From contig MBPM02000004.1 of the NCBI GenBank assembly GCA_001695595.3, positions 496,001 to 560,000 of the forward strand: a stretch of 64,000 nt of DNA, written 5' to 3'. Shown piece after piece: positions 2,140 to 35,739 of this stretch; the stretch's first letter is position 1, and every line of letters begins with the position of its first letter. The translations under genes were made by a program, and so were the position numbers. The DNA is from Plasmopara viticola. Its lineage: Eukaryota > Oomycota > Peronosporomycetes > Peronosporales > Peronosporaceae. A model generated the notes under the pieces. It was not told the origin of the DNA. It saw nothing but the letters and a program-made list of their open reading frames with translations, and made no database searches.

Positions 2140-2319
2140 TGTAACGGCCTCTAATTGGGTGTCCCACAGTATGTGTCAACTTGACATATAAGAGAATCGG
2201 TCACATTCTAGAATATCGAGACAGAAGAACACGTGGCTACAAGTGAGTAAGAGCCGATAGTTTGCTTTACTCCTATGAATTTACTTTCCATTTTGCACTG
2301 CGACAATCACATTGTTATA
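2140..2319 (+). repeat. 5' LTR of copia D
   Basis: 180 bp, beginning TGTAACGG and ending TTGTTATA, with short imperfect inverted termini (TGTAAC/GTTATA). It should carry the promoter and the start of the genomic transcript, but I cannot place these exactly. Confidence 0.9.
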
Positions 2320-2331
2320 GGTTATGAGCCC
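2320..2331 (+). promoter_or_regulatory. Primer-binding site of D, half-tRNA-Met type, overlapping the gag ATG
   Basis: GGTTATGAGCCC follows the LTR directly. It is the reverse complement of the anticodon arm GGGCTCATAACC of initiator tRNA-Met as known from yeast, not of a tRNA 3' end. Drosophila copia is primed by such a 5' half of initiator tRNA-Met. The gag start codon at 2324-2326 sits inside the site. Confidence 0.65.
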
Positions 2332-5300
2332 AATAACGAACCCGAACGAGATCCTCAGCGACGACAACTACTTCCTGTGGGAGTTTAACGCCCGCATGGC
2401 ATTGGCCAGGAAGGACCTCCTCGATCATCTCGAGGTGAAGCCAGAAGACGCAGTGAACGCCCCCGCCCAATGGAAAGCCGCCGATGTGAAGGCGCTGGCT
2501 GTGGTGTCGAAGCTGTTGAGTCCAACGTACCAGATGATGGTGAGAGAAGCCAATTCTGCATGGGAAGCATGGCAAATTCTGCGTGCATTTTTCATGTAGC
2601 AGAGTCTGCACAGCCGTGTGCAGCTGCGCAAGCAACTCCACGAGTTCGCGATGGCCGGTGGTGGGAGTCTCATGAGGCATCTGGTGCAGTTCGATGAATT
2701 GTGTGCGAAGTTGGCTGCGGTTGGTGACGCTCCGCCTGAAGAGGAGAAGCTGGTGATCCTCCTTGGTAGTCTGCCAAGTGAGTACGACGCGATGGTGCGG
2801 CTCATCGAAGCGCGCGACCGTGTGACACTTCTGGATGCGAAAGAGATGATCCGACGCGAATATGAGATGATTCAGAAACGCGAGGTGAAGGAGCAAGCAT
2901 TCAAGGCGACGGTGAGTGATAATGGTGGAAGGTTCCAGAATGGGCGTGGAGGCCGACGTGGACGAAATGCCAAGGGACACGGACGCAAAAAGCATAATGG
3001 TGGTGACAAGAAGGAGTTCAAGGGCCGATGCTATGAATGCCACGAAGCTGGCCACAAGAAACAAGATTGCCCGAGGCTGAAGAGCAATGCCGGTGGTTCG
3101 GAGTTCGCGTTCTCCGCTATGACCGCTGGTGGTGAGCAATCGTCCACCTGGCTCCTTGATAGTGAAGCCAGCTCGCACATGACTACGGATCGGAATGATT
3201 TTTCGGGAATACCGCCCGCTTACCGAACCAATCGAAATCATGGTGGCAAATGGCCAGCGAGTTGCCGCCATAGGTATGGGTACCGTGCGAGTTTACTTTA
3301 CCAGAGACGTGCGGGTGAAGTTGACGGAAGTTCTCCACGTTCAGAAATTGGACCGAAAGCTACTGTCGGTTCCTGCACTCATGTCCAAGAATCTCGCTGT
3401 GCAGTTCGACAAGATCGGTGCCTCCATTTCGCAGAATGGCCATGTTGTTGTTCGAGTCCCTCGGATTGGGAAACTGTACGCGTGTGAACTAAAGTACAGA
3501 ACGGAAGGCAACGCGTATACGGCATTTGATGGTGAGTCAATTGATAAAGCTTACGAAGTTATTCACGCGCGCCTGGGGCACGTCTCCGATACCAAGCTAA
3601 AGCTAGTTACTCGCGCGTGCGATGGTATCCCCCCTATGGCTTTGTCTCAATCGGATGGTGGTGTTTGCGGTGGCTGTGCGCAAGGAAAAATGACCACGAG
3701 CTCGTACGCGCACCAATCGGGTAGCGAGATAAAGACAGGTCGCCCATTCGAGATTGTGCACACGGATGTGATGGGGCCAATTAAACCGAAATCCAAGGGT
3801 GGTGCGGTATACATCGTGGTCTTCGTGGACGACTTCAGCCGAGTAGTGTTCGTCAACTTCATCAAGCAGAAGTCTCAAGTGTTCGATTGCATCAAGGCAT
3901 TTTGCACTCAGGTTAAGGTGCAACACGGCTGCAAGGTGATGTGTGTTCGTAGTGACAACGGTGGTGAATATGTGAGCAAGCGCTTCGGCAAGTTCTGTGC
4001 GTCCAAAGGGATCATTCATCAGACGAGTGCGCCATACAGCCCCCAGCAAAATGGGACCGCTGAGCGTATGAACCGGACACTAGCTGACATGGCCCGATCG
4101 ATGCTACACTACATGCGAGTGGACCGTGTGTGGTGGGCTGAAGCGTTTCGGACTGCAGCTTACATCGTCAACCGTATCCCGAATACTGCGCGACCGGATC
4201 AGAGCCCCCTCGAAGTATTAACCGGAAAGCGCCAGTCACTCGAAGACCTTCGTGTATTTGGTGCTCGTGGCTACGTACATGTTGACAAGCCAAACGTAGG
4301 CAAACTTGATCCTCGAGCTCACCGTTAACTCTTCCTTGGATACGCTGATGGTTCAAAAGCGTACCGTGTGTGGGACTACGACGACGAGCGCATCGTGATT
4401 TCGCGATCGGTGCATCTGAACGAGCGACCAACAGACACGTTCCATGCCGTCAGTGATGACTCAAGTTGCTCTCCTTGGGTGGTTAGCATCAATGATCACG
4501 ATTCCGTGAGTAATATTCCGCCACCGCGACCAGTGAATGCGAACGACCATGATGCAACTGCGGATGGCGACGATGTTGCCGACGTTGAAATGGAAGAAGT
4601 GCCCCCTACCGATGCTCAAATCTCACCCGTTCCTACTGATGCTTTGGACAGGGGGAGTAACAGCCAGATGCAAGTTGTCCAGCGCATCAGTCCTGCTACT
4701 GTTACCGAAGATCAGCAGATGCAGCTCGCCCAGCGTCCTGATTGCGACATCGTCCAGCATCTCAATCCGAGCCTTGACCTCGTCCATGCTGCCGCATGTG
4801 ATCCGTGCACACCGTCAGCAATTATCCCTCATGGTGAAGGTGTTGGCGTCGGCGTCGATGCATCAGAGAATCGCATGGTGTTCAGTGGTGGTTCCATTCG
4901 CCCTCGGTCGATCACGTATGAACAACCGCGTCTACTGACTGATTGGGATATGCCTTTGCATCTTGGTGGCGCTGAAAATGACGTTGAGCCAGAACCAGAA
5001 AGCAAGCGACCACGCCTGGATGAGTACGAAATTGCGTTGGCGGTGTCTGAGCTACCTACATCATACGCTGAAGCAATGGCGGTCCCTGACGCTCCAGAAT
5101 GGAAGGAAGCTATTCGTGCTGAGATTCGGTCGCATGTGCGGAGCCACACGTGGGACATGATGCGACGACCTCAAGGAAACAAGGTGATCGGATGCAAATG
5201 GGTATTCGCGAAGAATTACGACGAGAATGGAGCGGTTAAGCGATACAAGGCACGTCTGGTCGCTCGAGGTTTCCTCCAGACTCGTGGCATAGACTATACC

Positions 5301-6611
5301 CACACATACTCACCAGTGGCAAGCATGAACACGATCCGGGTCTTTCTCGCATTGTGCTGCTCTCGACGCCTCATGATTCGCCAGTTTGACATTGAGACCG
5401 CATTTCTAAATGGCAAGCTTGACTAAACAGTGTTTATGAATCCCCCTGAAGGAGTGAATGTGGCGCCGGAATTGGTGTGCAGACTCCGCCGCAGCCTCTA
5501 TGGACTCAAGCAAGCTGCAGCTGTGTGACACCGTACCATCCGCGACGTGTTCAAGCGTCTCGGTTTCAAACAGTGTCGAGCTGATCCTTGTCTCTTCGTT
5601 CGACGAGATGACAGTGACCCAGCGGCCGCGGTTTTTGTAGTGCTCTACGTGGACGATCTACTTGTTGGCTGCAAAACAGAGGAACAAGCGCGATCCGTGT
5701 GTACTGTATCTTGCGTCGCACTTCACGGTCAAATCACTCGGTGATGCTCGTTTCGTTCTCGGGATGGAAGTACTTCACGATCGGGAACGTGGTGAAATGG
5801 TGGTGAAGCAATCTCAGTTTATAACCAAGTTGCTCGAGCGTTTTGGTCAAGTATCTGCTCATGGTGTCCGCAACCCAATGGTAATTGGTCAAGATCTCAG
5901 CCCATCCGACAAGCACGGTGTATGCACAGACAAAAATCAGTACCGCGAACTAATCGGATCAATGCTGTACGTTGCCAATGCCACACGTCCCGACATTGGC
6001 TACGTGCTGTCGATACTCTCTCAGTACCTCGATACGCCGCGTGAGATGCATTGGAATGCTGCGCTACGTGTACTTCGCTACCTCAAGGCCACTGATTCGA
6101 TCGGCATCCACTACACGGCAAAGGGCAAGAATATCGTGACATACTGCGACGCGAACTGGGGTGGTGATTAGGAGACGCGACGTTCGACGTCTGGTGTGAT
6201 GGTAAAGATGGCTGACGGTCCGGTCATCTACAAGAGCAAGCGTCAAGCGACCGTCGCATTATCAACTGCTGAAGGCGAGTACATGGCTCTCGCACTTACC
6301 GCTCAAGAAGTACTGTGGCTGCGTTTCCTCCTCACAGAGATGGGTGTAAGCGTGTCGAGTGCGTCGACGATCTACATGGACAACCAGTCGGCGATTAGTA
6401 TGGCAACTAATCACGGATACACCCCACGCGCCAAGCACATCGACCTCCGAGCTCACTTCATCCGTGACCACGTCGAGAAGGGCACTATCAAGGTGGAGTC
6501 GTACCATCGGAGTCTCAGCTAGCGGATATGTTAACGAAGGCCATTCCGACGCCGCGCTTTGTGGAGCTTCGTGTCGCATGCGGACTTGTGGACTGTCAAG
6601 TTGAGGGGGAG
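2324..6611 (+). pseudogene. gag-pol of copia D with five stops and three frameshifts
   Basis: Compared with element E, the frame is broken by stops at 2597 (TAG, in gag), 4326 (TAA, after integrase), 5424 (TAA, RT), 5526 (TGA, RT) and 6169 (TAG, RNase H), and by single-base frameshifts near 3207, 5705 and 6498. The zinc knuckle CX2CX4HX4C near 3031-3072 is intact, unlike that of E. The protease active site reads DSEAS where E has DSGAS, so the catalytic Asp-Ser-Gly is lost. The integrase shows HTDVMGP, SDNGGEY and QQNGTAER, and the RT has YVDD near 5644-5657. A polypurine tract (TTGAGGGGGAG, 6601-6611) precedes the 3' LTR. It cannot make its own polyprotein. Confidence 0.9.
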
Positions 6612-6791
6612 TCTAACGGCCTCTAATTGGGTGTCCCACAGTATGTGTCAACTTGACATATAAGAGAATCGGTCACATTCTAGAATATCGAGACAGAAGA
6701 ACACGTGGCTACAAGTGAGTAAGAGCCGATAGTTTGCTTTACTCCTATGAATTTACTTTCCATTTTGCACTGCGACAATCACATTGTTATA
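6612..6791 (+). repeat. 3' LTR of copia D
   Basis: 180 bp, identical to the 5' LTR except for C instead of G at its second base (6613), which alters the terminal TG. Confidence 0.9.
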
Positions 6792-8775: not shown

Positions 8776-8784
8776 TCGGTTAAA

Positions 8785-8914
8785 AAAAACGAAGTGAACA
8801 AATTTATCTAGACCAATGAACGGCTACCATATGTAATTACTAATTGTGACGTACTTGTAAATACTGTGACGCCATCCGCCTGTTCAACATGCATTCAGCG
8901 GTGTGATATTAACA
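8785..8914 (-). repeat. 3' LTR of copia A, outer end missing
   Basis: Homology to the other five LTRs of this family starts at about 8785 (CGAAGTGAACAAATTT) and ends at ...TTAACA (8914). About 15 outer bases, including TGTTGAGTAG, are gone. A polypurine tract (GGTGAGTGGGAG on the minus strand) is at 8915-8926. Confidence 0.85.
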
Positions 8915-11900
8915 CTCCCACTCACCGCTAATGCTGTGTGATTTTGTTGCTGACTCGGTCTTGATTTCGAAAATTTCGCGCAGATAATTCAGCATCTTGG
9001 TTCTAAGCGCCTTGGTTAGCCTATCTGCAAGCTGACTCTTCGTAACAATGTAGCCAATCTTGAGTAATTCATGCTGCACGTTCTCCCGAGTAAAGTGCTG
9101 TCTGAAGTCCACGTGCTTTGTACGTGCGTAGTAGCCCACGTTGTTTGCCAAAGCTATCGCACCTTAATTGTCTTCCCAAACCTGTGTGCCTTTAACGTGG
9201 TCGTGACCCACGTCCTTTAGCATTGCCCGCGTCCAGAGAACTTCTTGTGTGCATAAACTGAGAGCCATATACTCAGCTTGCGCTGAGCTCAGCGCAACTG
9301 TCCGCTGGTACTTCGACTTAAATAACACTGGTGCGCTTGCAATCATGACCATAATTCCCGAGACCGAGCGTCTGTCATCCGTGTTGCTGCCCCAATCTGC
9401 ATCCGAGTATGCTTTGACCGCAACGCTTCCACTTCCTCGGTAGACGGTACCGATTTGACCCGTGGTCTTCAGATACCGCACTATTCGAATTGCTGCACTC
9501 CAATGTTGTAGTCCTGGGTTCTCCTGAAAACGTGATAGCTGTGTCACCACGTAAGCAATATCAGGCCGAGTGCATGTCGATATGTACAGCAAGCATTCAA
9601 TCAAAGAGCGATAAGGCTTTGATCGCATTGTCGACCATCCCTCTTCCATTTTGGGTGACTGCTTTGACGACAGCTTCAGTCCTGATACGCATGGGTTTTC
9701 GACACTCTTGGCATCTTGTTGACCGAATCGCTTGACCACGTAATCGATGTAGCGAGTCTGTTTGATCATCAATATTCCAGCTGACCTGTCGCGATCAATT
9801 TCCATACCCAAAATAAATTCCACCTGACCAAGCTCCTTCATCTTGAAAGCATTCTTGAGTACTCCCGTTACTTGATTTAATTCTTTGCTGCTTCTTGGTG
9901 TGATAGTCATGTCATCTACATATACTCCAAAGAACGTAAGCAAAACCTTCTTTAGTGCTCTTGACATTAACACATTGATCTGCTCCGCAACTCTCAAAGC
10001 CATTTTTGACGGAGATACGATGTATTGTCTTGTTCCAGGTACTTGCTGTTTGCTGCAGCCCGTAAATAGCCTTGTTTAGATGACATATGTATCCTTGAGC
10101 ATTGTCGACACCAAGCGGAACTTCCACAAAAACGTTGTCCGTCAACACGATATTGAGAAAAGCCGTGTCGATGTCCAGCTGTTTCATTAAATAGTCGCAT
10201 TCAGCACATGCCGCGAGAATTATTCGGATCGAATTCATGTTAGCAATCGGGGAACATGTCTCGAAAAAGTCAACGCCATACTTCTGCTTGAAACCTTTCG
10301 CGACCAGTCGTGCCTTGTATTGCACGATAGCGCCATTCTGACCACGCTTTTTGGCAAATACCCATCGTGATCCAATTGTGCGTCCAGTCTTCCCTCGTGG
10401 CTGCAATGTCCACGTTTTATTCTCTTCGCGAGAGCGAAGCTCAGCATTCATTGCTTCACGCCATTTCACTGCATCGTCGCTTGCCATTGCTTGAGTATAG
10501 GTAGTCGGCGAGTCCGTATCATCGTCAGTATTCACGGCGTAGGCAAGAAAGGCTTCCGCAATTAGTCCATCTTCGTCAATCCTAGCACGCTTTATGGTCG
10601 GTGGGCCCTCTCTGCCTTCCGTTGACTCTCCGCCATCGAGTCGTTTCTTATCATTAGCACTGGCTCACGTCTTATTCGTGTTCGCTCCACTTCAGGCCGA
10701 AACACCAAACGGTCTTCTTGTTGCACTTGAAATGATTGATGATACTCCGTTAGCTCAAGCCTGTTTCGTTTAGGGCTCTCAGAAGGCATTAGCCGCTGTA
10801 CAACGGCGCTTGGCGTACGATCCACATCATCCATATCGATATCCTCGACTGTCTTTTCGCCAGCTCCCATGGGATCGTCCGGAACTGACTGTCGATCCAC
10901 TTGATGCTGAACATTGACTTCATCACCATCCTTCATTACTTGAACAATTGGTTCCGGCTTAAGCTCTTGCGTGTCGTAGATGCCGCCCACCTCACGCTCA
11001 TCCAACTTTACAGAGCGGGTCGCTTTAATCTTGGCATTCTCCAAGTCAAACACGCGATAGCCCTTGACATTCTCTGCATAGCCAAGAAACATATACTTGA
11101 AGCTCCTAGGATCCAGTTTGGTCCGTTTTACATCGTCATATGAGCGTAGCCTTGTGAACCAAATACGCGCAGGTGATCCATTCGAGGCTTCATCTTGAAA
11201 ATTAGCTGATACGGCGTGATGTCAGGATGGACCGTATTACTGGAGCGATCAACTGAAAAAACCGCCGTATTTACCGCTTCCGCCCACCATTCCGTCGAAA
11301 CGCTCTTGTAGTGTAACATGCTGCGGGCTTTCACCATAATTGTCCTATTCATACCCTCCGCCATTCCGTTCTGCTGCGGGCTGTATGGGACGGAGCACTG
11401 AGGTACAATGTCGTTCTCTTGACATATTCCAGCCATTTCCTTGTTTACAAACTCGATTCCGTTGTCGGATCGCAAACAACTTAGTCGTGTACCCCACTGG
11501 ATTTCGTATAACGTCAGAAACTCCTTGAACTTGCCAGCCACTTCACTCTTGCTCTTGATCAGATAAAGTGCAACATATCGTGAAAAGTCGTCCACAAACG
11601 TGAGAATGTATTTGGCACCACCCTTCGAGATAGTTCTCATTGGCCCCATGACATCTGTGTGAACACGCTCCAACACACGTGTCGTCTTTGTCATTGAACG
11701 AGACGGAAGCACTGTGACCGTCTGCTTGCCCAAACACCCGGCACACAATATTTTCACACTTTGCTTGATAATTGGGATACCATTCGTTAATCGCTATGTC
11801 CCGATCAGCGCATCCTTGCTGGGGTGCCCCATGCGTGCATGCCAAAGCTCCCACTGATTGTCAGCCCCGGAATATTCAACGAGTCATGCTTCTTCTTGTC

Positions 11901-13012
11901 CACAGTCAAGAAAATACGACTTCTCAAATTTTGTACCCGACGCAATTGTTTTGTTCTTAATTTAGATGACGCATGACGAACGCGAAAGTTCCACACTCAT
12001 GCCACGCTCTGCCAGCTTGTTAACTGACAGCAACCTTCTGTCGAGTCTGGGAATGTGCAGAACTTCAACCAAGCGAATCTTCATTCCGTTCAAACCAGTC
12101 AATTTTACCGTGCCGGCTCCTTTGACAAGCAACTTCTTCCCGTCTGCAATCGTAACTTCGATGCTAGCTTTCAGCCCTTGTAATCAAACAAGTCCTTCCT
12201 GTGTGGGGTCATGTGGGAAGTTGCTCCACTGTCAACCGGCCATCCTGATGACTTCCCTTCACCAACAGCAAACACCGCGTCGTCGCTGTTGAATCTTTTA
12301 CCGGCCGGGCAGTTCCACTTTATGTGTCCAAACTGGTCACAGTTGAAGCATTTGCCCTTAAATCCGCCGTTATTGCGTGGAGGACCACTGTTTCGTCCAT
12401 CGTCCCGTCCACCTTTAAATCTTCTAGCAATTCCATTTACTCGAAACGCTTTCTCTGTAGCTTCTTTCCTCTGCAGCTTCTCTGACTCTTTGAGCAGCTT
12501 TTTCTTGCCTTCTATCAACAAAATGTCCCTTGCATTTTCCACAATCGACGAAATCAAGTCGTACTCCGAAGGTAGACTGCTGAGGAGTATCACCAGCTGG
12601 TGTGACTCATCAATTTGCTCTTCCGTAGTCTGTAGTCCCACTACTAGCTCGTCAAAAGAGTCCAGATGCTCTGCCATGCTTATTCCACATTCCATCTTGA
12701 ACTCATGTAGTCGACGAGTCATCACAACACGATTGTGAAGAGTCGAGCGTTTGTAGAAATCGCGGAGGTTCCCCACGCCTCCATAGCACGCAAAGCCGAC
12801 CGAATTTTGGTCTGGTGCTGGATCTCAACGCTTTGAGCAATGCTGCCTAGCGCCTTGGCATCTTTAAGAAGCCACGCCTACGTGACGTCCTTCTCTTCCT
12901 TGACGGCCATGATGTGTCCCAGTACACCCTTTCGCGCCAGAGTCATCCTCATGTTGAGCTCTTAGTGGTAATAGTCACCACTTCCTAGGGGGACTTCGGT
13001 GCGCTTGTTCAT
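8909..13012 (-). pseudogene. gag-pol of copia A
   Basis: The gag ATG is at 13012, but a TAA at 12962-12964 stops it after 16 codons. Later parts are readable in pieces: gag with zinc knuckle CFNCDQFGHIKWNC and protease DSGATSHMT (12171-12776), integrase with HTDVMGP, RSDNG and NGMAEGMNR (11128-11757), a linker (10592-11092), the first RT half (9912-10535), then a frameshift into the RT half with YVDD and RNase H (9164-10003), a TAA at 9164-9166, and the tail (8909-9163). The RT frameshift and the RNase H stop are also present in B and C. Unlike B and C, the zinc knuckle and protease are in normal orientation. Confidence 0.88.
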
Positions 13013-13050
13013 ATTGGGCGAGAACGTTGCTTGAGAAGGAAGGCTTCTTG

Positions 13051-13062
13051 CGGCTGTTAACC
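13051..13062 (-). promoter_or_regulatory. Primer-binding site of copia A, half-tRNA-Asn type
   Basis: On the minus strand GGTTAACAGCCG follows the 5' LTR directly. It is the exact reverse complement of CGGCTGTTAACC, the anticodon arm of eukaryotic tRNA-Asn (GTT). It starts at the same tRNA position as the tRNA-Met match in D/E. Confidence 0.55.
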
Positions 13063-13209
13063 TGTTGAGTAGAAAGTAAAAACCGAAGTGAATATATTTT
13101 ATCTAGACCAATAAACGGCTACCATATGTAATTACTAACTGTGACGTGCTTGTAAATATTGTGACGCCATCCGGCTGTTCAACATGCATTCAGCGGTTTA
13201 ATTATAACA
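13063..13209 (-). repeat. 5' LTR of copia A
   Basis: 147 bp, bounded on the plus strand by TGTTGAGTAG and ATTATAACA. It is base-for-base identical to the right LTR of B (18903-19049), including ATATATTTT and GTGCTTGTAAATATT, which C lacks. Confidence 0.9.
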
Positions 13210-14630
13210 GCGCCAACGTTTTAGGAGCCGAGATCTAACGGCCAATGATTCGTCTAGTATGCCGCAAAGAGGAACAAGAATGTCATGTATGCAAAAGCCA
13301 GCCGACTGTAATAGAGCTATGTTCGATCGAGTCTCAGAAAGTCATCAAAACTTAGGTCCAAAGAGCTTTGAGCTATATGATACAGATTTTCCTTCCAAGT
13401 CTAGCTTACTGAGTGTAGAGAAAAGATGATCTTGGGAGTCCTTATTGACTCCGTGTATACTTTATACTGAAAAAAAGCCATTTAAATGTGAAAGCACTCA
13501 GAGCGCATCCTTTTTCATATTTTTAATTCTCATAGCGAAAGGAACGAGTGTTATTGGACCTCGGCGCTTATTGCATAGCCTAGGGTGTCTCGTCCGAGAC
13601 GAAGAAGGCATTAAATTGCCTTCAATCGGCGATAGCGCTTGGCTATATACACTGCAAAGGTAAGATTGGGTAACTATCAAATCTTGGCTATTCAGAGGCT
13701 TTTAACGCCAAAAACATCGAAGAAACGGTGATGACAAAGCCAGAAGAAGAGACCAAGTTTTCGTCATTTTTGAATGCAACGGTCTTACAAGTCATTAAAA
13801 GAACGCTTGATATCCCTGATTGTTTAAAATACATCGAATCTGAATAATCCTACGGAGTAGATATATTAGGTTGCAGTCCCGACCATGGCGCCTCCATCAA
13901 ACAGTTGTTCTTAAAGTTTGTCTGAATCTGGTAGGCAAATACTGTGCGATGCATTTGTGGACTTACATAAATGAAGTTTGACTAGGACCCGCCTTCGGCG
14001 TCTACTGCATCAAGGTGCCTGTTGTGAAATTTACTTACACTGCGTGCTACGGCAGTGGGCTTAAGTAAGACATCATTGACACATTCTGAAATGCATAACA
14101 CAAGTCATGTTGGCTCAGGAAAATTGGCCCTTTCGTTTCTGTGCGAGATAGAAGATACGAGTGGCACATCGTAACATTTGTAATAGATTAAATGACCACC
14201 ACCTGACACAGATGTCGTTTCTAGCTGCAAATAAAATTGTGGGAGGTGCAATGTGAACTGTACTTGACTTAGTTCACAGCCTTTTTTTTCAAAGCAGTGC
14301 CGACTGTAAGCAGAACATTAAGCGTACAGTCGGGCACACTTTCAAGGCATTCAAGACGTTTAACAAACTGTTGACGCAATTCTTTAGGTCCCGCTGGGCG
14401 TATCGACAACCATTTTCGAGTACCTTTTCGTCCGAAAGTATGCGGAGCATGAACAGACGAATGTGGTAGCAATATTGTGTACCTACAGATGGTGCTCAAC
14501 TTCATGCAAGCAAGATAGCTTTACTTAATGTATGGTTGGTGCGGAAAGTTTTCCTCTATTGAGTGCTTCATCGACAGGACCATAAGACAGACCATACTAG
14601 GAAGCAAGACCAACTAAATTTCTTGGTTAC
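13210..14630 (+). repeat. Spacer 1 between copia A and copia B
   Basis: Matches spacer 2 (19050-20470) with four differences noticed, and matches 42290-43600 in diverged form (both have TTTTAGGAGCCGAGAT, CGATCGAGTCTCAG and CCAAGTCTAGCTT). It holds no gene I can support. Because the 42-kb counterpart leads into a gypsy RNase H remnant, this may be upstream sequence of the same decayed element. Confidence 0.7.
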
Positions 14631-14776
14631 TGCTGAGTAGAAAGTAAAAACCGAAGTGAACAAATTTATCTAGACCAATGAACGCCTACCATATGTAATT
14701 ACTAACTGTGAAGTACTTGTAAATACTGTGACGCCATCCGCCTGTTCAACATGCATTCAGCGGTGTAATTTTAACA
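14631..14776 (-). repeat. 3' LTR of copia B
   Basis: 146 bp, starting TGCTGAGTAG and ending ATTTTAACA on the plus strand. Same as the left LTR of C (20471-20616) as far as read. The polypurine tract is at 14777-14788. Confidence 0.9.
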
Positions 14777-17700
14777 CTCCCACTCACCGCTAATGCTGTG
14801 TGTCCTGGAGGTTTTGCGCAGATACCTCAGCATCTTGGTTCCAAGCGCCTTGGTTAGCATATCTGCAAGCTGACTCTTCGTAACAATGTAGCCAATCTTG
14901 AGTAATTCATGCTGCACGTTCTCCCGGGTAAAGTGCTGTCTGATATCCACGTGCTTTGTACGTGCGTAGTAGCCCGCGTTGTTTGCCAAAGCTATCGCAC
15001 CTTAAATGCCTTCAAAAAGCTGTGTGCCTTCAACGTGGTCGTGCCCCATGTCCTTTAGCATTGCCCGCGTCCAGAGAACTTCTTGTGTGCATAAACTGAG
15101 AGCCATATACTCAGCTTCCGCTGAGCTCAGCGCAACTGTCCGCTGGTACTTCGACTTAAATAACACTGGTGCGCTTGCAGTCATGACCATAATACCCGAG
15201 ACCAAGCGTCTGTCATCCGTGTTGCTGCCCCAATCTGCATCCGAGTATGCTTTGACCGCAACGCTTCCACTTCCTCGGTAGACGGTACCGATTTGACCCG
15301 TGGTCTTCAGATACCGCACTATTCGAATTGCTGCACTCCAATGTTGTAGTCCTGGGTTCTCCTGAAAACGTGATAGCTGTGTCACCACGTAAGCAATATC
15401 AGGCCGAGTGCATGTCGATATGTACAGCAAGCATTCAATCAAAGAGCGATAAGGCTTTGATCGCATTGTCGACCATCCCTCTTCCATTTTGGGTGACTGC
15501 TTTGACGACAGCTTCAGTCCTGATACGCATGGGTTTTCGACACTCTTGGCATCTTGTTGACCGAATCGCTTGACCACGTAATCGATGTAGCGAGTCTGTT
15601 TGATCATCAATATTCCAGCTGACCTGTCGCGATCAATTTCCATACCCAAAATAAATTCCACCTGACCAAGCTCCTTCATCTTGAAAGCATTCTTGAGTAC
15701 TCCCGTTACTTGATTTAATTCTTTGCTGCTTCTTGGTGTGATAGTCATGTCATCTACATATACTCCAAAGAACGTAAGCAAAACCTTCTTTAGTGCTCTT
15801 GACATTAACACATTGATCTGCTCCGCAACTCTCAAAGCCATTTTTGACGGAGATACGATGTATTGTCTTGTTCCAGGTACTTGCTGTTTGCTGCAGCCCG
15901 TAAATAGCCTTGTTTAGATGACATATGTATCCTTGAGCATTGTCGACACCAAGCGGAACTTCCACAAAAACGTTGTCCGTCAACACGATATTGAGAAAAG
16001 CCGTGTCGATGTCCAGCTGTTTCATTAAATAGTCGCATTCAGCACATGCCGCGAGAATTATTCGGATCGAATTCATGTTAGCAATCGGGGAACATGTCTC
16101 GAAAAATTCAACGCCATCCTTCTGCTTGAAACCTTTCGCGACCAGTCGTGCCTTGTATCGCACGATAGCGCCATTCTGATCACGCTTTTTGGCAAATACC
16201 CATCGTGATCCAATCGTGCGTCCAATCTTCCCTCGTGGCTGCAATGTCCACGTTTTATTCTCTTCGCGAGAGCGAAGCTCAGCATTCATTGCTTCACGCC
16301 ATTTCACTGCATCGTCGCTTGCCATTGCTTGAGTAAAGGTAGTCGGCGAGTCCGTATCATCGTCAGTATTCACGGCGTAGGCAAGAAAGGCTTCCGCAAT
16401 TAGTCCATCTTCGTCAATCCTAGCACGCTTTATGGTCGGTGGACCCTCTCTGCCTTCCGTTGACTCTCCACCATCGAGTCGTTTCTTATCATTAGCACTG
16501 GCTCACGTCTTATTCGTGTTCGCTCCACTTCAGGCCGAAACACCAAACGGTCTTCTTGTTGCACTTGAAATGATTGATGATACTCCGTTAGCTCAAGCCT
16601 GTTTCGTTCAGGGCTCTCAGAAGGCATTAGCCGCTGTACAACGGCGCTTGGTGTACGATCCACATCATCCATATCGATATCCTCGACTGTCTCTTCACCA
16701 GCTCCCATGGGATCGTCCGGAACTGACTGTCGATCCACTTGATGCTGAACATTGACTTCATCACCATCCTTCATTACTTGAACAATTAATTCCGGCTTAA
16801 GCTCTTGCGTGTCGTAGATGCCGCCCACCTCACGCTCATCCAACTTTACAGAGCGGGTCGCTTTAATCTTGGCATTCTCCAAGTCAAACACGCGATAGCC
16901 CTTGACATTCTCTGCATAGCCAAGAAACATACACTTGAAGCTCCTGGGTTCCAGTTTGGTCCGTTTTACATCGTCATATGAGCGTAGCCTTGCGAATCAA
17001 ATACGCGCAGGTGATCCATTCGAGGCCTTATCTTGAAAATTAGCTGATACGGCGTGATGTCAGGATGGACCGTATTGCTGGAGCGATCAACTAAAAAAAC
17101 CGCCGTATTTACCGCTTCCGCCCACCATTCCGTCGAAACGCTCTTGTAGTGTAACATGCTGCGGGCTTTCACCATAACTGTCCTATTCATACCCTCCGCC
17201 ACACCGTTCTGCCGCGGGCTGTATGGAACGGAACGCTGGTGTACAATGTCGTTCTCTTGACATATTCCAGCCATCTTCTTGCTTACGAACTCGGTCCGTT
17301 GTCGGATCGCAAACATCTTAGTCGTGTACCCCACTGGATTTCGTATAACGTCAGAAATTCCTTGAACTTGCCAGCCACTTCACTCTTGCTCTTGATCAGA
17401 TAAAGTGCAGCATATCGTGAAAAGTCACCCACAAACGTGAGAATGTATTTGGCACCACTCTTCGAGATAGTTCTCGTTGGCCCCATGACATCTGCGTGGA
17501 CACGCTCCAACACACGTGTCGTCTTTGCCATTGAATGAGACGGAAGCACCGTGACCGTCTGCTTGCCCATAAACACCCGGCACACAAAATTTCCACACTT
17601 TGCTTGATGATTGGGATACCATTCTTTAATCGCTGTGTCCTGATCAGCGCATCCTTGCTGGGGTGCCCCATGCGTGCATGCCAAAGCTCCCACTGATTGT

Positions 17701-18852
17701 CAGCCCCGGAATATTCAACGAGTCATGCTTCTTCTTGTTCACAGTCAAGAAAATACGACTTTTCAAATTTTGTACCTTACGCAATTGCTTTTTTCGTATT
17801 CCAGATTGGACACATGAAGCGGAACTGCCCGGCCGGTAAAAGATTCAACAGCGACGACACGGTGTTTGCTGTTGGTGAAGGGAAGTCATCAGGATGGCTA
17901 ATTGACAGTGGAGCAACTTCCCACAAGACCCCACACAGGAAGGACTTGTTTGATTACAAGGGCCTGAAAGCTAGCATCGAAGTTACGATTGCAGACGGGA
18001 AGAAGTTGCTTGTCAAAGGAGCCGGCACGGTAAAATTGACTGGTTTGAACGGAATGAAGATTCGCATGGTTGAAGTTCTGCACATTCCCAGACTCGACAG
18101 AAGGTTGCTGTCAGTCGGCAAGCTGGCAGAGCGTGGCATGAGTGTGGAATTGTCGCGTTCGTCATGCGTCATCTGGTCACAGTTGAAGCACTTGCCCTTA
18201 AATCCGCCGTTATTGCGTGAAGGACCACTCTTTCGTCCATTGTCCCGTCCACCTTTAAATCTTCTAGCAATTCCATTTACTCGAAACGCTTTCTCTGTAG
18301 CTTCTTTCCTCTGCAGCTTCTCTGACTCTTTGAGCAGCTTTATCTTGACTTCTATCAACAAAATGTCCCTTGCATTTTCCACAATCGACGAAATCAAGTC
18401 GTACTCCGAAGGTAGACTGCTGAGAAGTACCACCAGCTGGCGTGACTCATCAATTTGCTCTTCCGTAGTCTGTAGTCCCACTACTAGCTCGTCAAAAGAG
18501 TCCAGATGCTCTGCCATGCTTATTCCACTTTCCATCTTGAACTCATGTAGTCGACGAGTCATCACAACACGATTGTGAAGAGTCGAGCGATTGTAGAAAT
18601 CGCGGAGGGTTCCCCACGCCTCCATAGCACGCATAGCCGACCGAATTTTGGTCTGGTGCTGGATCTCAACGCCTTGAGCAATGCTGCCTAGCCCTTGGCA
18701 TCTTTAAGAAGCCACGCCTCCGTGACGTCCTTCTCTTCCTTGACGGCCATGATGTGTTCCAGGAGAACCTTCCGCGCCAGGGTCATCCTCATGCTGAACT
18801 CCCAGTCGTAATAGTTACCACTTTCTAGGAGGACTTCGGTGCGCTTGTTCAT
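14771..18852 (-). pseudogene. gag-pol of copia B with inverted zinc-knuckle/protease segment
   Basis: The gag ATG at 18852 opens MNKRTEVLLESGNYYDWEF, but one base is lost near 18690 compared with A, shifting the frame. Gag resumes at 18634. Bases 17805-18172 are inverted, so the zinc-knuckle residues, protease DSGATSH and following linker read on the plus strand inside a chimaeric 293-codon frame (17697-18578). The integrase is split by a frameshift near 17300 (RSDNGPSS versus the following TEFVSKKM). The RT halves (15750-16373 and 15002-15841) carry the same frameshift as A, and RNase H the same TAA. The copy cannot be autonomous. Confidence 0.88.
17805..18172 (+). repeat. Inverted segment inside copia B
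   Basis: About 368 bp whose reverse complement equals the corresponding part of copia A (about 11965-12330). The borders show CCAG at 17801-17804 and its complement CTGG at 18173-18176, a short inverted homology that makes the exact breakpoints ambiguous by four bases. Confidence 0.85.
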
Positions 18853-18890
18853 ATTGGGCGAGAACGTTGCTTGAGAAGGAAGGCTTCTTG

Positions 18891-18902
18891 CGGCTGTTAA
18901 CC
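18891..18902 (-). promoter_or_regulatory. Primer-binding site of copia B, half-tRNA-Asn type
   Basis: GGTTAACAGCCG on the minus strand, the A-type version, next to the 5' LTR. Confidence 0.55.
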
Positions 18903-19049
18903 TGTTGAGTAGAAAGTAAAAACCGAAGTGAATATATTTTATCTAGACCAATAAACGGCTACCATATGTAATTACTAACTGTGACGTGCTTGTAAATATT
19001 GTGACGCCATCCGGCTGTTCAACATGCATTCAGCGGTTTAATTATAACA
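18903..19049 (-). repeat. 5' LTR of copia B
   Basis: 147 bp, identical to the 5' LTR of A and unlike the 5' LTR of C (24732-24878). Confidence 0.9.
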
Positions 19050-20470
19050 GCGCCAACGTTTTAGGAGCCGAGATCTAACGGCCAATGATTCGTCTAGTAT
19101 GCCGCAAAGAGGAACAAGAATGTCATGTATGCAAAAGCCAGCCGACTGTAATAGAGCTATGTTCGATCGAGTCTCAGAAAGTCATCAAAACTTAGGTCCA
19201 AAGAGCTTTGAGCTATATGATACAGATTTTCCTTCCAAGTCTAGCTTACTGAGTGTAGAGAAAAGATGATCTTGGGAGTCCTTATTGACTCCGTGTATAC
19301 TTTATACTGAAAGAAAGCCATTTAAATGTGAAAGCACTCAGAGCGCATCCTTTTTCATATTTTTAATTCTCATAGCGAAAGGAACGAGTGTTATTGGACC
19401 TCGGCGCTTATTGCATAGCCTAGGGTGTCTCGTCCGAGACGAAGAAGGCATTAAATTGCCTTCAATCGGCGATAGCGCTTGGCTATATACACTGCAAAGG
19501 TAAGATTGGGTAACTATCAAATCTTGGCTATTCAGAGGCTTTAAACGCCAAAAACATCGAAGAAACGGTGATGACAAAGCCAGAAGAAGAGACCAAGTTT
19601 TCGTCATTTTTGAATGCAACGGTCTTACAAGTCATTAAAAGAACGCTTGATATCCCTGATTGTTTAAAATACATCGAATCTGAATAATCCTACGGAGTAG
19701 ATATATTAGGTTGCAGTCCCGACCATGGCGCCTCCATCAAACAGTTGTTCTTAAAGTTTGTCTGAATCTGGTAGGCAAATACTGTGCGATGCATTTGTGG
19801 ACTTACATAAATGAAGTTTGACTAGGACCCGCCTTCGGCGTCTACTGCATCAAGGTGCCTGTTGTGAAATTTACTTACACTGCGTGCTACGGCAGTGGGC
19901 TTAAGTAAGACATCATTGACACATTCTGAAATGCATAACACAAGTCATGTTGGCTCAGGAAAATTGGCCCTTTCGTTTCTGTGCGAGATAGAAGATACGA
20001 GTGGCACATCGTAACATTTGTAATAGATTAAATGACCACCACCTGACACAGATGTCGTTTCTAGCTGCAAATAAAATTGTGGGAGGTGCAATGTGAACTG
20101 TACTTGACTTAGTTCACAGCCTTTTTTTTCAAAGCAGTGCCGACTGTAAGCAGAACATTAAGCGTACAGTCGGGCACACTTTCGAGGCATTCAAGACGTT
20201 TAACAAACTGTTGACGCAATTCTTTAGGTCCCGCTGGGCGTATCGACAACCATTTTCGAGTACCTTTTCGTCCGAAAGTATGCGGAGCATGAACAGACGA
20301 ATGTGGTAGCAATATTGTGTACCTACAAATGGTGCTCAACTTCATGCAAGCAAGATAGCTTTACTTAATGTATGGTTGGTGCGGAAAGTTTTCCTCTATT
20401 GAGTGCTTCATCGACAGGACCATAAGACAGACCATACTAGGAAGCAAGACCAACTAAATTTCTTGGTTAC
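19050..20470 (+). repeat. Spacer 2 between copia B and copia C
   Basis: Copy of spacer 1. Differences noticed: A to G near 19313, T to A near 19542, A to G near 20184 and G to A near 20327. No gene supported. Confidence 0.7.
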
Positions 20471-20616
20471 TGCTGAGTAGAAAGTAAAAACCGAAGTGAA
20501 CAAATTTATCTAGACCAATGAACGCCTACCATATGTAATTACTAACTGTGAAGTACTTGTAAATACTGTGACGCCATCCGCCTGTTCAACATGCATTCAG
20601 CGGTGTAATTTTAACA
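20471..20616 (-). repeat. 3' LTR of copia C
   Basis: 146 bp, TGCTGAGTAG...ATTTTAACA on the plus strand. The polypurine tract is at 20617-20628. Confidence 0.9.
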
Positions 20617-24692: not shown

Positions 24693-24719
24693 ATTTTGCT
24701 TGAGAAGGAAGGCTTGTTG

Positions 24720-24731
24720 CGGCTGTTTACC
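24720..24731 (-). promoter_or_regulatory. Primer-binding site of copia C, one mismatch
   Basis: GGTAAACAGCCG on the minus strand; position 4 is A where A and B match tRNA-Asn with T. Confidence 0.5.
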
Positions 24732-24878
24732 TGTTGAGTAGAAAGTAAAAACCGAAGTGAATATAGTTTATCTAGACCAATAAACGGCTACCATATGTAA
24801 TCACTAATTGTGACGTACTTGTAAATACTGTGACGCCATCCGCCTGTTCAACATGCATTCAGCGGTGTAAATTTAACA
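24732..24878 (-). repeat. 5' LTR of copia C
   Basis: 147 bp, TGTTGAGTAG...AATTTAACA on the plus strand, with diagnostic ATATAGTTT and GTAATCACTAATTG. Confidence 0.9.
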
Positions 24879-25049
24879 GCTCCATCATATACATATAAAA
24901 GATGATATAGTAATGCCTCAGCCTTTTCAATAAATCACAAAAGTTCAGTGCAAGCAAAGCAGAAGCGGCAAATTTACCATTTGATATATACAGGAAAAGT
25001 GCGGAACTGATTCTGACATCCTAACAATGTTACGGGGGCCGACTTTGAT

Positions 25050-31046: not shown

Positions 31047-31226
31047 TGTAACGACCTCTAATTGGGTGTCCCACAGTATGTGCCAACTTGACATATAAGG
31101 GAAATAGTCACATTCTAGAATATCGAGACAGAAGAACACGTGGCTACAAGTGAGTTAGAGCCGATAGTTTGCTTTATTCCTATGAATTTACTTTCCATTT
31201 TGCACTGCGACAATCACATTGTTATA
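31047..31226 (+). repeat. 5' LTR of copia E
   Basis: 180 bp, TGTAACGACC...TTGTTATA. Differs from the D LTR at about eight positions. Confidence 0.93.
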
Positions 31227-31238
31227 GGTTATGAGCCC
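31227..31238 (+). promoter_or_regulatory. Primer-binding site of copia E overlapping the gag start
   Basis: GGTTATGAGCCC directly after the LTR, identical to D. ATG at 31231-31233 within it opens gag, so the translation start is the complement of the CAU anticodon of the presumed primer tRNA. There is no untranslated leader between the LTR and gag beyond four bases. Confidence 0.65.
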
Positions 31239-32025
31239 AATAAAGAACCCGAACGAGATCCTCAGCGACGACAACTACTTCCTGTGGGAGTTTAACGCCC
31301 GCATGGCATTGGCCAGGAAGGACCTCCTCGACCATCTCGAGGTGAAGCCAGAAGACGCAGTGAACGCCCCCGCCCAATGGAAAGCCGCCGATGTGAAGGC
31401 GCTGGCTGTGGTGTCGAAGCTGTTGAGTCCAACGTACCAGATGATGGTGAGAGAAGCCAATTCTGCATGGGAAGCATGGCAAATTCTGCGTGCATTTTTC
31501 ATGAAGCAGAGTCTGCACAACCGTGTGCAGCTGCGTAAGCAACTCCACGAGTTCGCGATGGCCAGTGGTGGGAGTCTCATGGAGCATCTGGTGCAGTTCG
31601 ATGAATTGTGTGCGAAGTTGGCTGCGGTTGGTGACGCTCTGCCTGAAGAGGAGAAGCTGGTGATCCTCCTTGGTAGTGTGCCAAGTGAGTACGACGCGAT
31701 GGTGCGACTCATCGAAGCGCGCGACCGTGTGACACTTCTGGGTGCAAAAGAGATGCTCCGACGCGAATATGAGATGATTCAGAAACGCGAGGTGAAGGAG
31801 CAAGCATTCAAGGCGACGGTGAGTGATATTGGTGGAAGGTTACAAAATGGGCGTGGAGGCCGACGTGGACGAAATGCCAAGGGACACGGAGGCAAAGGGC
31901 ATAATGGTGGTGACAAGAAGGAGTTCAAGGGCCGATGCTATGAATGCCACGAAGCTGGCCACAAGAAGCAAGATTCCCCGAGGCTGAAGGGCAATGCCGG
32001 TGGTTCGGAGTTGCCAGGTGGATGA
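31231..32025 (+). CDS. Copia E gag
   Basis: 264 residues from the ATG in the primer-binding site to the TGA at 32023-32025. The N-terminal two thirds are of the copia gag (UBN2-like) type: LSDDNYFLWEF near residue 10, the WEAWQILRAFF region, LVILLGSVPSEYD and IQKREVKEQAF. A basic Gly/Arg/Lys-rich stretch (about 207-233) precedes the zinc knuckle. The knuckle reads C236, C239, H244, S249: the last cysteine is serine (TCC at 31975-31977), whereas D has TGC, so RNA packaging by this copy is probably impaired. The stop comes from the hairpin rearrangement at 32013-32062 and separates gag from pol in what is otherwise one frame. Confidence 0.88.
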   Translation: MSPIKNPNEILSDDNYFLWEFNARMALARKDLLDHLEVKPEDAVNAPAQWKAADVKALAVVSKLLSPTYQMMVREANSAWEAWQILRAFFMKQSLHNRVQLRKQLHEFAMASGGSLMEHLVQFDELCAKLAAVGDALPEEEKLVILLGSVPSEYDAMVRLIEARDRVTLLGAKEMLRREYEMIQKREVKEQAFKATVSDIGGRLQNGRGGRRGRNAKGHGGKGHNGGDKKEFKGRCYECHEAGHKKQDSPRLKGNAGGSELPGG

Positions 32026-32062
32026 TCGCTCACCGCTGGTGGTGAGCGATCATCCACCTGGC
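32013..32062. repeat. Perfect 22-bp hairpin at the gag/protease junction of copia E
   Basis: Arms 32013-32034 and 32041-32062 are exact inverted copies with a 6-base loop (GCTGGT). In D the right arm exists in nearly the same form but the left arm is replaced by unrelated sequence, so in E the left arm is a templated inverted copy of the right. The TGA stop lies in the left arm. Confidence 0.93.
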
Positions 32063-35000
32063 TCCTTGATAGTGGAGCCAGCTCGCACATGACTACGGAT
32101 CGGAATGAGTTTTCGGAGTACCGCCCGCTTACAGAACCAATCGAGATCATGGTGGCAAATGACCAGCGGGTTGCCGCCATAGGTATGGGTACAGTGCGAG
32201 TTAACTTTACCGGAGGCGTGCGGGTGAAGTTGACGGAAGTTCTCCACGTTCAGAATTTGGACCGAAAGCTACTGTCGGTTCCTGCACTCATGTCCAAGAA
32301 TCTCGCTGTGCAGTTCGACAAGACCGGTGCCTCCATCTCGCTGAATGGCCGTGTTATTGTTCGAGTCCCTCGGTTTGGGAAACTGTACGCGTGTGAACTA
32401 AAGTACAGAACGGAAGGCAACGCGTATACGGCATTTGATGGTGATAAAGCCTACGAAGTCATTCACGCGCGCCTGGGGCACGTCTCCGATACCAAGCTAA
32501 AGTTAATTGCTCGCGCGTGCGATGGTGTCCCCCCTATGGTTTTGTTTCAATCGGATGGTGGTGTTTGCAGTGGCTGTGCGCAAGGAAAAATGACCACGAG
32601 CTCGTACGCGCACCAATCGGGAAGCGAGATAAAGACAGGTCGCCCATTCGAGATTGTGCACACGGATGTGATGGGGCCAATAAAACCGAAGTCCAAGGGT
32701 GGTGCGGTATACATCGTGGTCTTCGTGGACGACTTCAGCCGAGTAGTGTTCGTCAACTTCATCAAGCAGAAGTCTCAAGTGTTCGATTGCTTCAAGGCAT
32801 TTTGCACTCAGGTTAAGGTGCAACACGGCTGCAAGGTGATGTGTGTTCGTAGTGACAACGGTGGTGAATATGTGAGCAAGCGCTTCGGCAAGTTCTGTGC
32901 GTCCAAAGGGATCATTCACCAGACGAGTGCGCCATACAGCCCCCAGCAAAATGGGACCGCTGAGCGTATAAACCGGACACTAGCTGACATGGCCCGATCG
33001 ATGCTACACTACATGCGAGTGGACCGTGTGTGGTGGGCTGAAGCGTTTCGGACTGCAGCTTACATCGTCAACCGTATCCCGAATACTGCGCGACCGGATC
33101 AGAGTCCCCTCGAAGTATTAACCGGAAAGCGCCAGTCACTCGAAGACCTTCGTGTATTTGGTGCTCGTGGCTACGTACATGTTGACAAGCCAAACGTAGG
33201 CAAACTTGATCCTCGAGCTCACCGTTGCCTCTTCCTTGGATACGCTGATGGTTCGAAAGCGTATCGTGTGTGGGATTACGACGACGAGCGCATCGTGATT
33301 TCGCGATCGGTGCATCTGAATGAGCGACCACCAGACACGTTCCATGCCGTCAGTGATGACTCAAGTTGCTCTCCTTGGGTGGTTAGCATCAATGATCACG
33401 ATTCCGTGAGTAATATTCCGCCACCGCGACCAGTGAATGAGAACGACCATGATGCAACTGCGGATGTCGACGATGCCGCCGACGTTGAAATGGAAGAAGT
33501 GCCCCCTACTGATGCTCAAGTCTCACCCGTTCCTACTGATGCTTTGGACAGGGGGAGTAACAGCCAGATGCAAGTTGTCCAGCGCATCAGTCCTGCCACT
33601 GCTACCGAAGATCAGCAGATGCAGCTCGCCCAGCGTCCTGATTGCGATATCGTCCCGCACTTACAACATCCAAGTCGGTCGATCGATCGCCCTGCCATCG
33701 TCCAACATCTAAACCCGAGCCTTGACCTCGTCCGTGCTGCCGGATGTGATCCGTGCGCACCGTCAGCAATAATCCCTCATGGTGAAGGTGTTGGCGTCGG
33801 CGTCGATGCATCAGAGAATCGCATGGTGTTCAGTGGTGGTCCCATTCGCCCTCGATCGATCACGTATGAACAACCGCGTCTACTGACTGATGGAGATATG
33901 CCTTTGCATCTTGGTGGCGCTGAAAATGACGATGGGCCAGAACCAGAAAGCAAGCGACCACGCCTGGATGAGTACGAAATTGCGTTGGCGGTGTCTGAGC
34001 TGCCTACATCATACGCTGAAGCAATGGCGGCCCCTGACGCTCCGCAATGGAAGGAAGCTATTCGTGCTGAGATTCGGTCGCATGTGCGGAGCCACACGTG
34101 GGACATGGTGCGACGACCTCAAGGAAACAAGGTGATCGGATGCAAATGGGTATTCGCGAAGAAGTACGACGAGAATGGAGCGGTAAAGCAATACAAGGCA
34201 CGTCTGGTCGCTCGAGGTTTCCTCCAGACTCGCGGCATAGACTATACCCACACATACTCACCAGTGGCAAGCATGAACACGATCCGGGTCTTTCTCGCAT
34301 TGTGCTGCTCTCGACGCCTCATGATTCGCCAGTTTGACATTGAGACCGCATTTCTAAATGGCAAGCTTGACGAAACAGTGTTTATGAATCCCCCTGAAGG
34401 AGTGAATGTGGCGCCGGAATTGGTTTGCAGACTCCGCCGCAGCCTCTATGGACTCAAGCAAGCTGCAGCTGTGTGGCACCGTACCATCCGCGACGTGTTC
34501 AAGCGTCTCGGTTTCAAACAGTGTCGAGCCGATCCTTGTCTCTTCGTTCGACGAGATGACAGTGACCCAGCGGCCGCGGTTTTTGTGGTGCTTTACGTGG
34601 ACGATCTACTTGTTGGCTGCAAAACAGAGGAACAAGCGCGATCCGTGTGTACTGGTCTCGCGTCGCACTTCACGGTCAAATCACTCGGTGATGTTCGTTT
34701 TGTTCTCGGGATGGAAGTACTTCACGATCGGAAACGTGGTGAAATGGTGGTGAAGCAATCTCAGTTTATAACCAAGTTGCTCGAGCGTTTTGGTCAAGTA
34801 TCTGCTCATGGTGTCCGCAACCCAATGGTAATTGGTCAAGATCTCAGCCCATCCGACAAGCACGGTGTATGCACAGACAAAAATCAGTACCGCGAACTAA
34901 TCGGATCAATGCTGTACGTTGCCAATGCCACACGTCCCGACATTGGCTACGTGCTGTCGATACTCTCTCAGTACCTCGATACGCCGCGTGAGATGCATTG

Positions 35001-35574
35001 GAATGCTGCGTTACGTGTACTTCGCTACCTCAAGGCCACTGATTCGATCGGCATCCACTACACGGCAAAGGGCAAGAATATCGTGACATACTGCGACGCG
35101 AACTGGGGTGGTGATAAGGAAACGCGACGTTCGACGTCTGGTTTGATGGTGAAGTTGGCTGACGGTCCGGTCATCTACAAGAGCAAGCGTCAAGCGACCG
35201 TCGCGTTATCAACTGCTGAAGGCGAGTACATGGCTCTCGCACTTACCGCTCAAGAAGTACTGTGGCTACGTTTCCTCTTCACAGAGATGGGTTTAAACGT
35301 GTCGAGTGCGTCGACGATCTACATGGACAACCAGTCGGCGATTAGTATGGCAACTAACCACGGATACACCCCACGCGCCAAGCACATCGACCTCCGAGCT
35401 CACTTCGTCCGGGACTACGTCGAAAAGGGCACCATCAAGGTGGAGTACGTACCATCAGAGTCTCAGCTGGCGGATATGTTAACGAAGGCCATTCCGACGC
35501 CACGATTTGTGAAGCTTCGTGACGCATGCGGACTTGTGGACTGTCAAGTGGAAGGGGACTGTAACGACCTCTAA
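32026..35574 (+). CDS. Copia E pol: protease, integrase, RT, RNase H
   Basis: Open in the gag frame from just after the TGA. The first ATG, at 32089, would already lose the protease active site DSGAS (32068-32082). Numbering from that ATG: a His/Cys zinc-binding region of the integrase near 125-170 (HARLGHVSD, CSGCAQGK); integrase catalytic D193, D256 and E292 (D,D35E spacing); an acidic, Pro-rich linker about 430-620; RT from about 680 (ARLVARGF, YSPVASM) with YVDD at 836-839; RNase H with D1003, E1046 and D1080. No further lesion is visible. The end lies 15 bases inside the 3' LTR; a polypurine tract (GTGGAAGGGGAC, 35548-35559) precedes the LTR. Confidence 0.92.
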   Translation, partial: SLTAGGERSSTWLLDSGASSHMTTDRNEFSEYRPLTEPIEIMVANDQRVAAIGMGTVRVNFTGGVRVKLTEVLHVQNLDRKLLSVPALMSKNLAVQFDKTGASISLNGRVIVRVPRFGKLYACELKYRTEGNAYTAFDGDKAYEVIHARLGHVSDTKLKLIARACDGVPPMVLFQSDGGVCSGCAQGKMTTSSYAHQSGSEIKTGRPFEIVHTDVMGPIKPKSKGGAVYIVVFVDDFSRVVFVNFIKQKSQVFDCFKAFCTQVKVQHGCKVMCVRSDNGGEYVSKRFGKFCASKGIIHQTSAPYSPQQNGTAERINRTLADMARSMLHYMRVDRVWWAEAFRTAAYIVNRIPNTARPDQSPLEVLTGKRQSLEDLRVFGARGYVHVDKPNVGKLDPRAHRCLFLGYADGSKAYRVWDYDDERIVISRSVHLNERPPDTFHAVSDDSSCSPWVVSINDHDSVSNIPPPRPVNENDHDATADVDDAADVEMEEVPPTDAQVSPVPTDALDRGSNSQMQVVQRISPATATEDQQMQLAQRPDCDIVPHLQHPSRSIDRPAIVQHLNPSLDLVRAAGCDPCAPSAIIPHGEGVGVGVDASENRMVFSGGPIRPRSITYEQPRLLTDGDMPLHLGGAENDDGPEPESKRPRLDEYEIALAVSELPTSYAEAMAAPDAPQWKEAIRAEIRSHVRSHTWDMVRRPQGNKVIGCKWVFAKKYDENGAVKQYKARLVARGFLQTRGIDYTHTYSPVASMNTIRVFLALCCSRRLMIRQFDIETAFLNGKLDETVFMNPPEGVNVAPELVCRLRRSLYGLKQAAAVWHRTIRDVFKRLGFKQCRADPCLFVRRDDSDPAAAVFVVLYVDDLLVGCKTEEQARSVCTGLASHFTVKSLGDVRFVLGMEVLHDRKRGEMVVKQSQFITKLLERFGQVSAHGVRNPMVIGQDLSPSDKHGVCTDKNQYRELIGSMLYVANATRPDIGYVLSILSQYLDTPREMHWNAALRVLRYLKATDSIGIHYTAKGKNIVTYCDANWGGDKETRRSTSGLMVKLADGPVIYKSKRQATVALSTAEGEYMALALTAQEVLWLRFLFTEMGLNVSSASTIYMDNQSAISMATNHGYTPRAKHIDLRAHFVRDYVEKGTIKVEYVPSESQLADMLTKAIPTPRFVKLRDACGLVDCQVEGDCNDL

Positions 35575-35739
35575 TTGGGTGTCCCACAGTATGTGCCAAC
35601 TTGACATATAAGGGAAATAGTCACATTCTAGAATATCGAGACAGAAGAACACGTGGCTACAAGTGAGTTAGAGCCGATAGTTTGCTTTATTCCTATGAAT
35701 TTACTTTCCATTTTGCACTGCGACAATCACATTGTTATA
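35560..35739 (+). repeat. 3' LTR of copia E
   Basis: Identical to the 5' LTR as read; contains the last codons and stop of pol. Confidence 0.93.

Follow-up and report, generated by a model that had tools for sequence, protein, structure and literature searches.

A site complementary to the anticodon arm of initiator tRNA-Met contains an in-frame gag ATG in Ty1/copia elements of Plasmopara viticola

What primes minus-strand synthesis in two Ty1/copia elements of Plasmopara viticola, and could the same bases also start their gag? The question arises from 12 nucleotides, GGTTATGAGCCC, which a preliminary description of this DNA had placed directly after the 5' LTR and read as a site for half-tRNA priming with the gag start codon inside it. 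The placement is confirmed, with a gap of 0 nt, in element D (2320-2331) and element E (31227-31238). Coordinates refer to the window, the whole stretch of 64,000 nucleotides analysed. The reading that we favor, with a probability of about 0.8, is that D and E are Ty1/copia elements (Pseudoviridae) whose minus-strand synthesis is primed by the 5' half of initiator tRNA-Met, and whose gag starts at the ATG in the primer-binding site.

Structure and class of elements D and E

The elements and their parts are as follows.

2140-6791, + strand: element D, young Ty1/copia element with 180-bp LTRs
2140..2319, + strand: 5' LTR of D, TGTAAC...GTTATA, 180 bp (defined by the repeat, the LTR pair and the target duplication)
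2324..2599, + strand: gag frame of D, open for 91 codons and interrupted in this copy
6612..6791, + strand: 3' LTR of D (defined by the repeat and the LTR pair)
31047-35739, + strand: element E, young Ty1/copia element with 180-bp LTRs
31047..31226, + strand: 5' LTR of E, 0 mismatches in 180 to its own 3' LTR, exact target duplication
31231..32025, + strand: gag frame of E, 264 aa (Pfam Retrotran_gag_2), opened by the ATG within the primer site
32089..35574, + strand: pol frame of E, integrase domains and then reverse transcriptase RVT_2, the Ty1/copia order
35560..35739, + strand: 3' LTR of E (defined by the repeat and the LTR pair)

The LTRs of D differ at 1 of 180 positions and those of E at none. 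E is flanked by an exact target duplication (CTGGG/CTGGG) and D by TACCT/TGCCT, which agree at 4 of 5 positions. Together, the LTR pairs and the target duplications make the boundary between LTR and site firm in both elements. The pol frame of E, scanned against Pfam as four pieces, contains gag_pre-integrs and rve followed by RVT_2, with no Pfam match in the last piece (229 aa). The presence of gag, and of integrase ahead of reverse transcriptase, between two LTRs places E in the Pseudoviridae (Ty1/copia).

At the gag-pol junction of E, two perfectly complementary 22-nt arms of an inverted repeat flank a 6-nt loop (32013-32062). D lacks this repeat, which resembles the product of a template switch and supplies the stop at 32025 that terminates the E gag frame. 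Elsewhere in the window, positions 8784-24904 comprise three tandem copies of a unit of ~5.84 kb, apparently different from D and E.

Complementarity to initiator tRNA-Met

2320..2333, + strand: primer-binding site of D, GGTTATGAGCCCAA, complementary to nt 26-39 of the initiator tRNA-Met gene
31227..31240, + strand: primer-binding site of E, the identical 14 nt, with the same complementarity to initiator tRNA-Met

The site pairs with the anticodon arm of initiator tRNA-Met, as had been proposed, and does so over 14 nt (GGTTATGAGCCCAA), two more than the preliminary description had claimed. Beyond these 14 mismatch-free pairs, one G-U pair and then one further pair are observed between site and tRNA. 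The alignment with this genome's own initiator tRNA-Met, suggested there as a check, was carried out, and the gene does contain GGGCTCATAACC; neither of the two contrary outcomes named in that description was observed. The pairing implies a primer 3' end at nt 39 of the tRNA gene. Since the anticodon occupies nt 33-35 of the gene, one below standard numbering, this nucleotide corresponds to standard position 40. The site is therefore complementary to a short 5' segment of the tRNA and not to its 3' end, the primer type of the genus Hemivirus.

The tRNA gene is 72 nt long. The sequence GGGCTCATAACCC occurs 64 times in the genome; contig C20 accounts for 57 of these, spaced at a period near 550 bp. 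Seven of the 30 loci fetched were submitted to ARAGORN (six from C20, one from C18). A tRNA-Met(CAT) was called at all six C20 loci; the C18 locus, which is an element, gave no call. The C20 region 525983-558396 (loci L010-L038) is a tandem array of initiator tRNA-Met genes with 57 exact sites and at least one further copy lacking the exact 13-mer.

From the base composition of the window, GGTTATGAGCCC is expected in 0.006 copies per 64 kb and 9.4 per genome. The window contains two copies and the whole genome (92,937,831 bases, 358 contigs) 759, against three genomic copies of the pattern read backwards. The tRNA array accounts for 57 of the 759. Although the search pattern comprised only 12 nt, the match continues with AA, as the tRNA predicts, in 731 of the 759, or in about 674 of 702 without the array; these copies are not independent of one another.

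Pairing between the D site region and the tRNA half is calculated at -28.8 kcal/mol, compared with -5.0 kcal/mol for the anticodon arm's own fold, suggesting that an annealed half-tRNA would cover the start codon. Folding of the leader predicts a partly paired primer site. In the D family, positions 2321-2337 could fold as GTTAT-GAGCCCA-ATAAC, with a 5-bp stem and a 7-nt loop; in E, one base of the 3' arm differs.

Priming could instead start from the LTR RNA itself, as in Tf1, or from a tRNA 3' end bound further downstream. We consider both very improbable. The D LTR, the only LTR examined in this respect, contains no exact complement of 6 nt or more to the 14-nt site, and self-priming was rejected on this basis. 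The first TGG lies 59 nt downstream of the D LTR, inside gag, so that no site for a tRNA 3' end adjoins this LTR. Four TGGTAGCA cores are present in the window (14464, 20304, 43304 and 56780), none of them at D or E, and a primer site of this type was likewise rejected.

Copies and families in the genome

The preliminary description had also called for a collection of family members to see whether the site is invariant. Within the D/E family (F1), 49 of 51 copies carry the exact 14-mer; the site is thus nearly invariant, but a nearby 15-nt stretch of gag used as control is intact in 51 of 57, so that conservation within the family does not discriminate. Because the copies are young, near-invariance proves little here. 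The same applies to family F2, with 36 exact sites in 42. The useful conservation evidence is that between families and between species.

Thirty LTR ends of the D/E family were fetched regardless of the primer site. The exact 12-mer follows in 17 of them, and 10 continue into different DNA, as expected of 3' or solo LTRs. Of the remaining three, L066 lacks one C, and L064 and L065 break off inside the site.

The site is also present in other copia families of this genome. We sampled 65 element sites, non-randomly: 9 from site and tRNA patterns, 17 from the LTR ends and 39 from the first 100 matches listed. In 57 of these 65, belonging to five families (F1, 21; F2, 21; F3, 9; F5, 5; F4, 1), the reading frame started by the site ATG leads into a gag-like motif. 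For F5, the N-terminal frame matches Pol_BBD only and no gag model in Pfam, and it is gag by position only. The other eight sites are three frame-shifted ones (L087, L088 and L105), a shifted F2-like one (L009), an F1 deletion (L062) and three of a sixth family, F6.

The gag start codon and the leader

2324..2326, + strand: gag start codon of D, within the primer site, with an in-frame TAG at 2318-2320
2275..2277, + strand: out-of-frame ATG in the D LTR, weak context, 49 nt before the gag ATG; it speaks against simple first-AUG use

The ATG inside the site of D and E is in frame with gag, as had been claimed, and starts 5 nt past the LTR. An in-frame TAG, straddling the junction between LTR and site, lies 6 nt upstream, so that gag of D and E cannot begin further up. 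The base at position -3 is G, which derives from two C of the anticodon stem and gives an acceptable start context. The preliminary description had seen practically no leader. A leader does exist, but it is composed of LTR sequence plus GGTT. In F1 leaders, the upstream out-of-frame ATG (49 nt) has a reading frame that crosses the primer site, and ribosomes would meet this ATG first if transcription begins near the TATA-like box.

The site ATG might be an unavoidable upstream AUG in a genuine primer site, with gag made mainly from a later ATG through leaky scanning or reinitiation. This describes F6, whose site ATG opens an upstream ORF of six codons, MSPNL[SPT]*. The gag-like start of this family, ATGATGAA, is in a different frame, 40 nt downstream of the site ATG. 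F2 is also compatible with it: a second in-frame ATG has a strong context, GCCACCATGG, and 37 of 60 F2 relatives (best 120 of 193) are annotated from another Met. Both features suggest that F2 may use both ATGs. In F1 and F3, on the other hand, no other in-frame Met precedes the conserved N-terminal residues of gag. The next one in F1 is codon 25, within a stretch conserved among relatives. An in-frame stop is found 9 nt upstream of the site ATG in eight of nine F3 sites; the ninth, L083, has none within the 60 nt upstream examined. Given these two families, and the 57 of 65 sampled sites in which the ATG is in frame with gag, we regard a later start as an unlikely general explanation and retain the site ATG as the probable gag start of D and E.

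F6-type sites number four in the genome, and the sampled copies (L069, L080 and L108) are otherwise broken. F6, a low-copy family, offers a natural comparison for the families with the overlap.

Gag relatives in other species

Protein searches with the gag sequences of F1, F2 and F3 gave 268 listed proteins, those for F2 being the best 120 of 193. The gag N-terminal motif was found within 110 residues in 115 of the 268, which were kept; the MSP counts do not include the other 153. An N-terminal Met-Ser-Pro is present in 28 of 39 F1 relatives, 11 of 16 F3 relatives and 21 of 60 F2 relatives (F2, best 120 of 193). The MSP proteins are named from Phytophthora, Peronospora, Pythium and Lagenidium, and one from the fungus Colletotrichum fructicola. 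This last protein (P0016) is 75% identical to the oomycete F2 query and may reflect contamination or transfer.

Codon 4 of gag takes its first base from base 14 of the site. In the motif set (F2, best 120 of 193), all 49 distinct N-termini have a fourth residue for which a codon with initial A exists, compared with 5 to 26 of the same 49 at positions 5-12. Among the MSP proteins counted, this holds for 64 of 66 (F2, best 120 of 193); the exceptions, P0099 and P0119, are remote relatives with Asp. Among N-termini with less than 50% mutual identity, it holds for 18 of 20 (p 1.4e-6 against a background of 0.37). As Ser and Arg also have codons that do not start with A, this footprint is necessary and not sufficient.

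Could the 14 nt be conserved solely for the Met-Ser-Pro of Gag, with a coincidental tRNA match and priming by something else? The conservation of MSP among relatives is what such an account predicts. However, the noncoding GGTT ahead of the ATG also matches the tRNA, the serine codon is AGC in seven of seven family representatives (though these sites were chosen on the 12-mer), and F6 retains the site although its ATG is not the gag start. Moreover, the fourth residues seen (S, N, T, M, R, I and K) have a common first codon base and no common chemistry. The chance that protein conservation alone explains the site appears negligible.

Relatives annotated from further upstream carry the primer-site letters in two frames. 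P0139, P0165 and P0170 read K-V-M-S-P or V-M-S-P. P0007 and P0024 read G-Y-E-P, with the site ATG out of frame with gag. Some F1 relatives begin with MSS, MCP, MNP, MALSSS or MKKPDD, and P0147 from Pythium insidiosum is annotated from an F6-type gag start. A search for F1 gag relatives in viral contigs gave 29 pattern matches, none of which was confirmed.

Comparison with known elements

Within the Pseudoviridae, half-tRNA priming sets apart the genus Hemivirus, for which primer type is the main defining character (PMC8515867). Priming by the 5' half of initiator tRNA-Met, for which the preliminary description had cited copia, is indeed reported for hemiviruses in excerpts of PMC1181622, which put the primer end at nt 40 of this tRNA. 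Excerpts of PMC5371799 treat the half-tRNA primer of Ty5 and RNase P. Plant Osser, Bryco and part of Gymco-II, as well as the fungal Copia-28_PHord, resemble D and E in having half tRNA-Met primer sites; they differ in host, and the excerpted descriptions contain no statement on the start codon (PMC6317226, PMC10886601). Hemivirus members (copia, 1731, Ty5 and Osser) share with D and E a gene order of copia type and a site at which the 5' half of initiator tRNA-Met, ending at nt 40, can pair. D and E have their gag start codon within this site; the difference is drawn here against copia, which has a longer leader between LTR and gag.

Among oomycetes, the centromere-enriched CoLT of Phytophthora sojae is also a Ty1/copia element; it is compared here by description only, and the excerpted description does not include a primer site (PMC7082073). 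In P. viticola, C8:1-255400 and C13:146000-205100 are dense runs of half-tRNA-primed elements, with a partly regular spacing near 5.73 kb on C13. They are possible centromere-type clusters like those of CoLT.

Half-tRNA priming is already known, and its overlap with a start codon may have been described earlier. Word searches of open-access titles, abstract openings and text passages showed no description of a gag start inside a primer site.

Proposed mechanism and implications

The observed complementarity, position and frame of the site, and its presence across families and species, point to the following sequence of events. Initiator tRNA-Met would be cleaved at nt 39 of the gene sequence, giving a 39-nt 5' half. 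By analogy with copia and Ty5, this half would anneal in the particle to the 14-nt site next to the LTR, and its extension would proceed into U5. Gag initiation would take place at the ATG of the site, whose 14 nt would also specify the residues Met-Ser-Pro and supply the initial A of codon 4. Pairing with the CAU anticodon requires an ATG in the primer site, and judged from the letters the tRNA sequence seems to dictate how Gag begins.

Since the annealed primer would occupy the gag start codon, translation and priming should exclude each other on one RNA. More tentatively, the overlap could be a working switch, in which the cleaved half covers the AUG that the same tRNA species reads, and the start of Gag is forced to Met-Ser-Pro plus an A-codon across oomycetes. 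Primer engagement would then silence translation of that RNA, and the initiating ribosome might help to deliver the tRNA. This extension is a good deal less probable than the priming and start-codon assignments themselves.

The sharing of one retroelement RNA between translation and reverse transcription is a major question, as excerpts of PMC3735527 put it. BARE of barley, the subject of these excerpts, resembles D and E in that one transcript has to serve both functions, but it resolves the matter with separate RNA pools (PMC3735527), whereas in D and E both functions need the same bases. As both occupy the same bases here, the trade-off between them is directly testable. An AUG in the primer site is unavoidable for every element primed from the initiator anticodon, and two solutions are observed in P. 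viticola: fusion to gag (F1-F5) or closure within six codons (F6). A host tRNA sequence seems here to specify how a protein begins, in a way that is visible in oomycete protein sequences alone.
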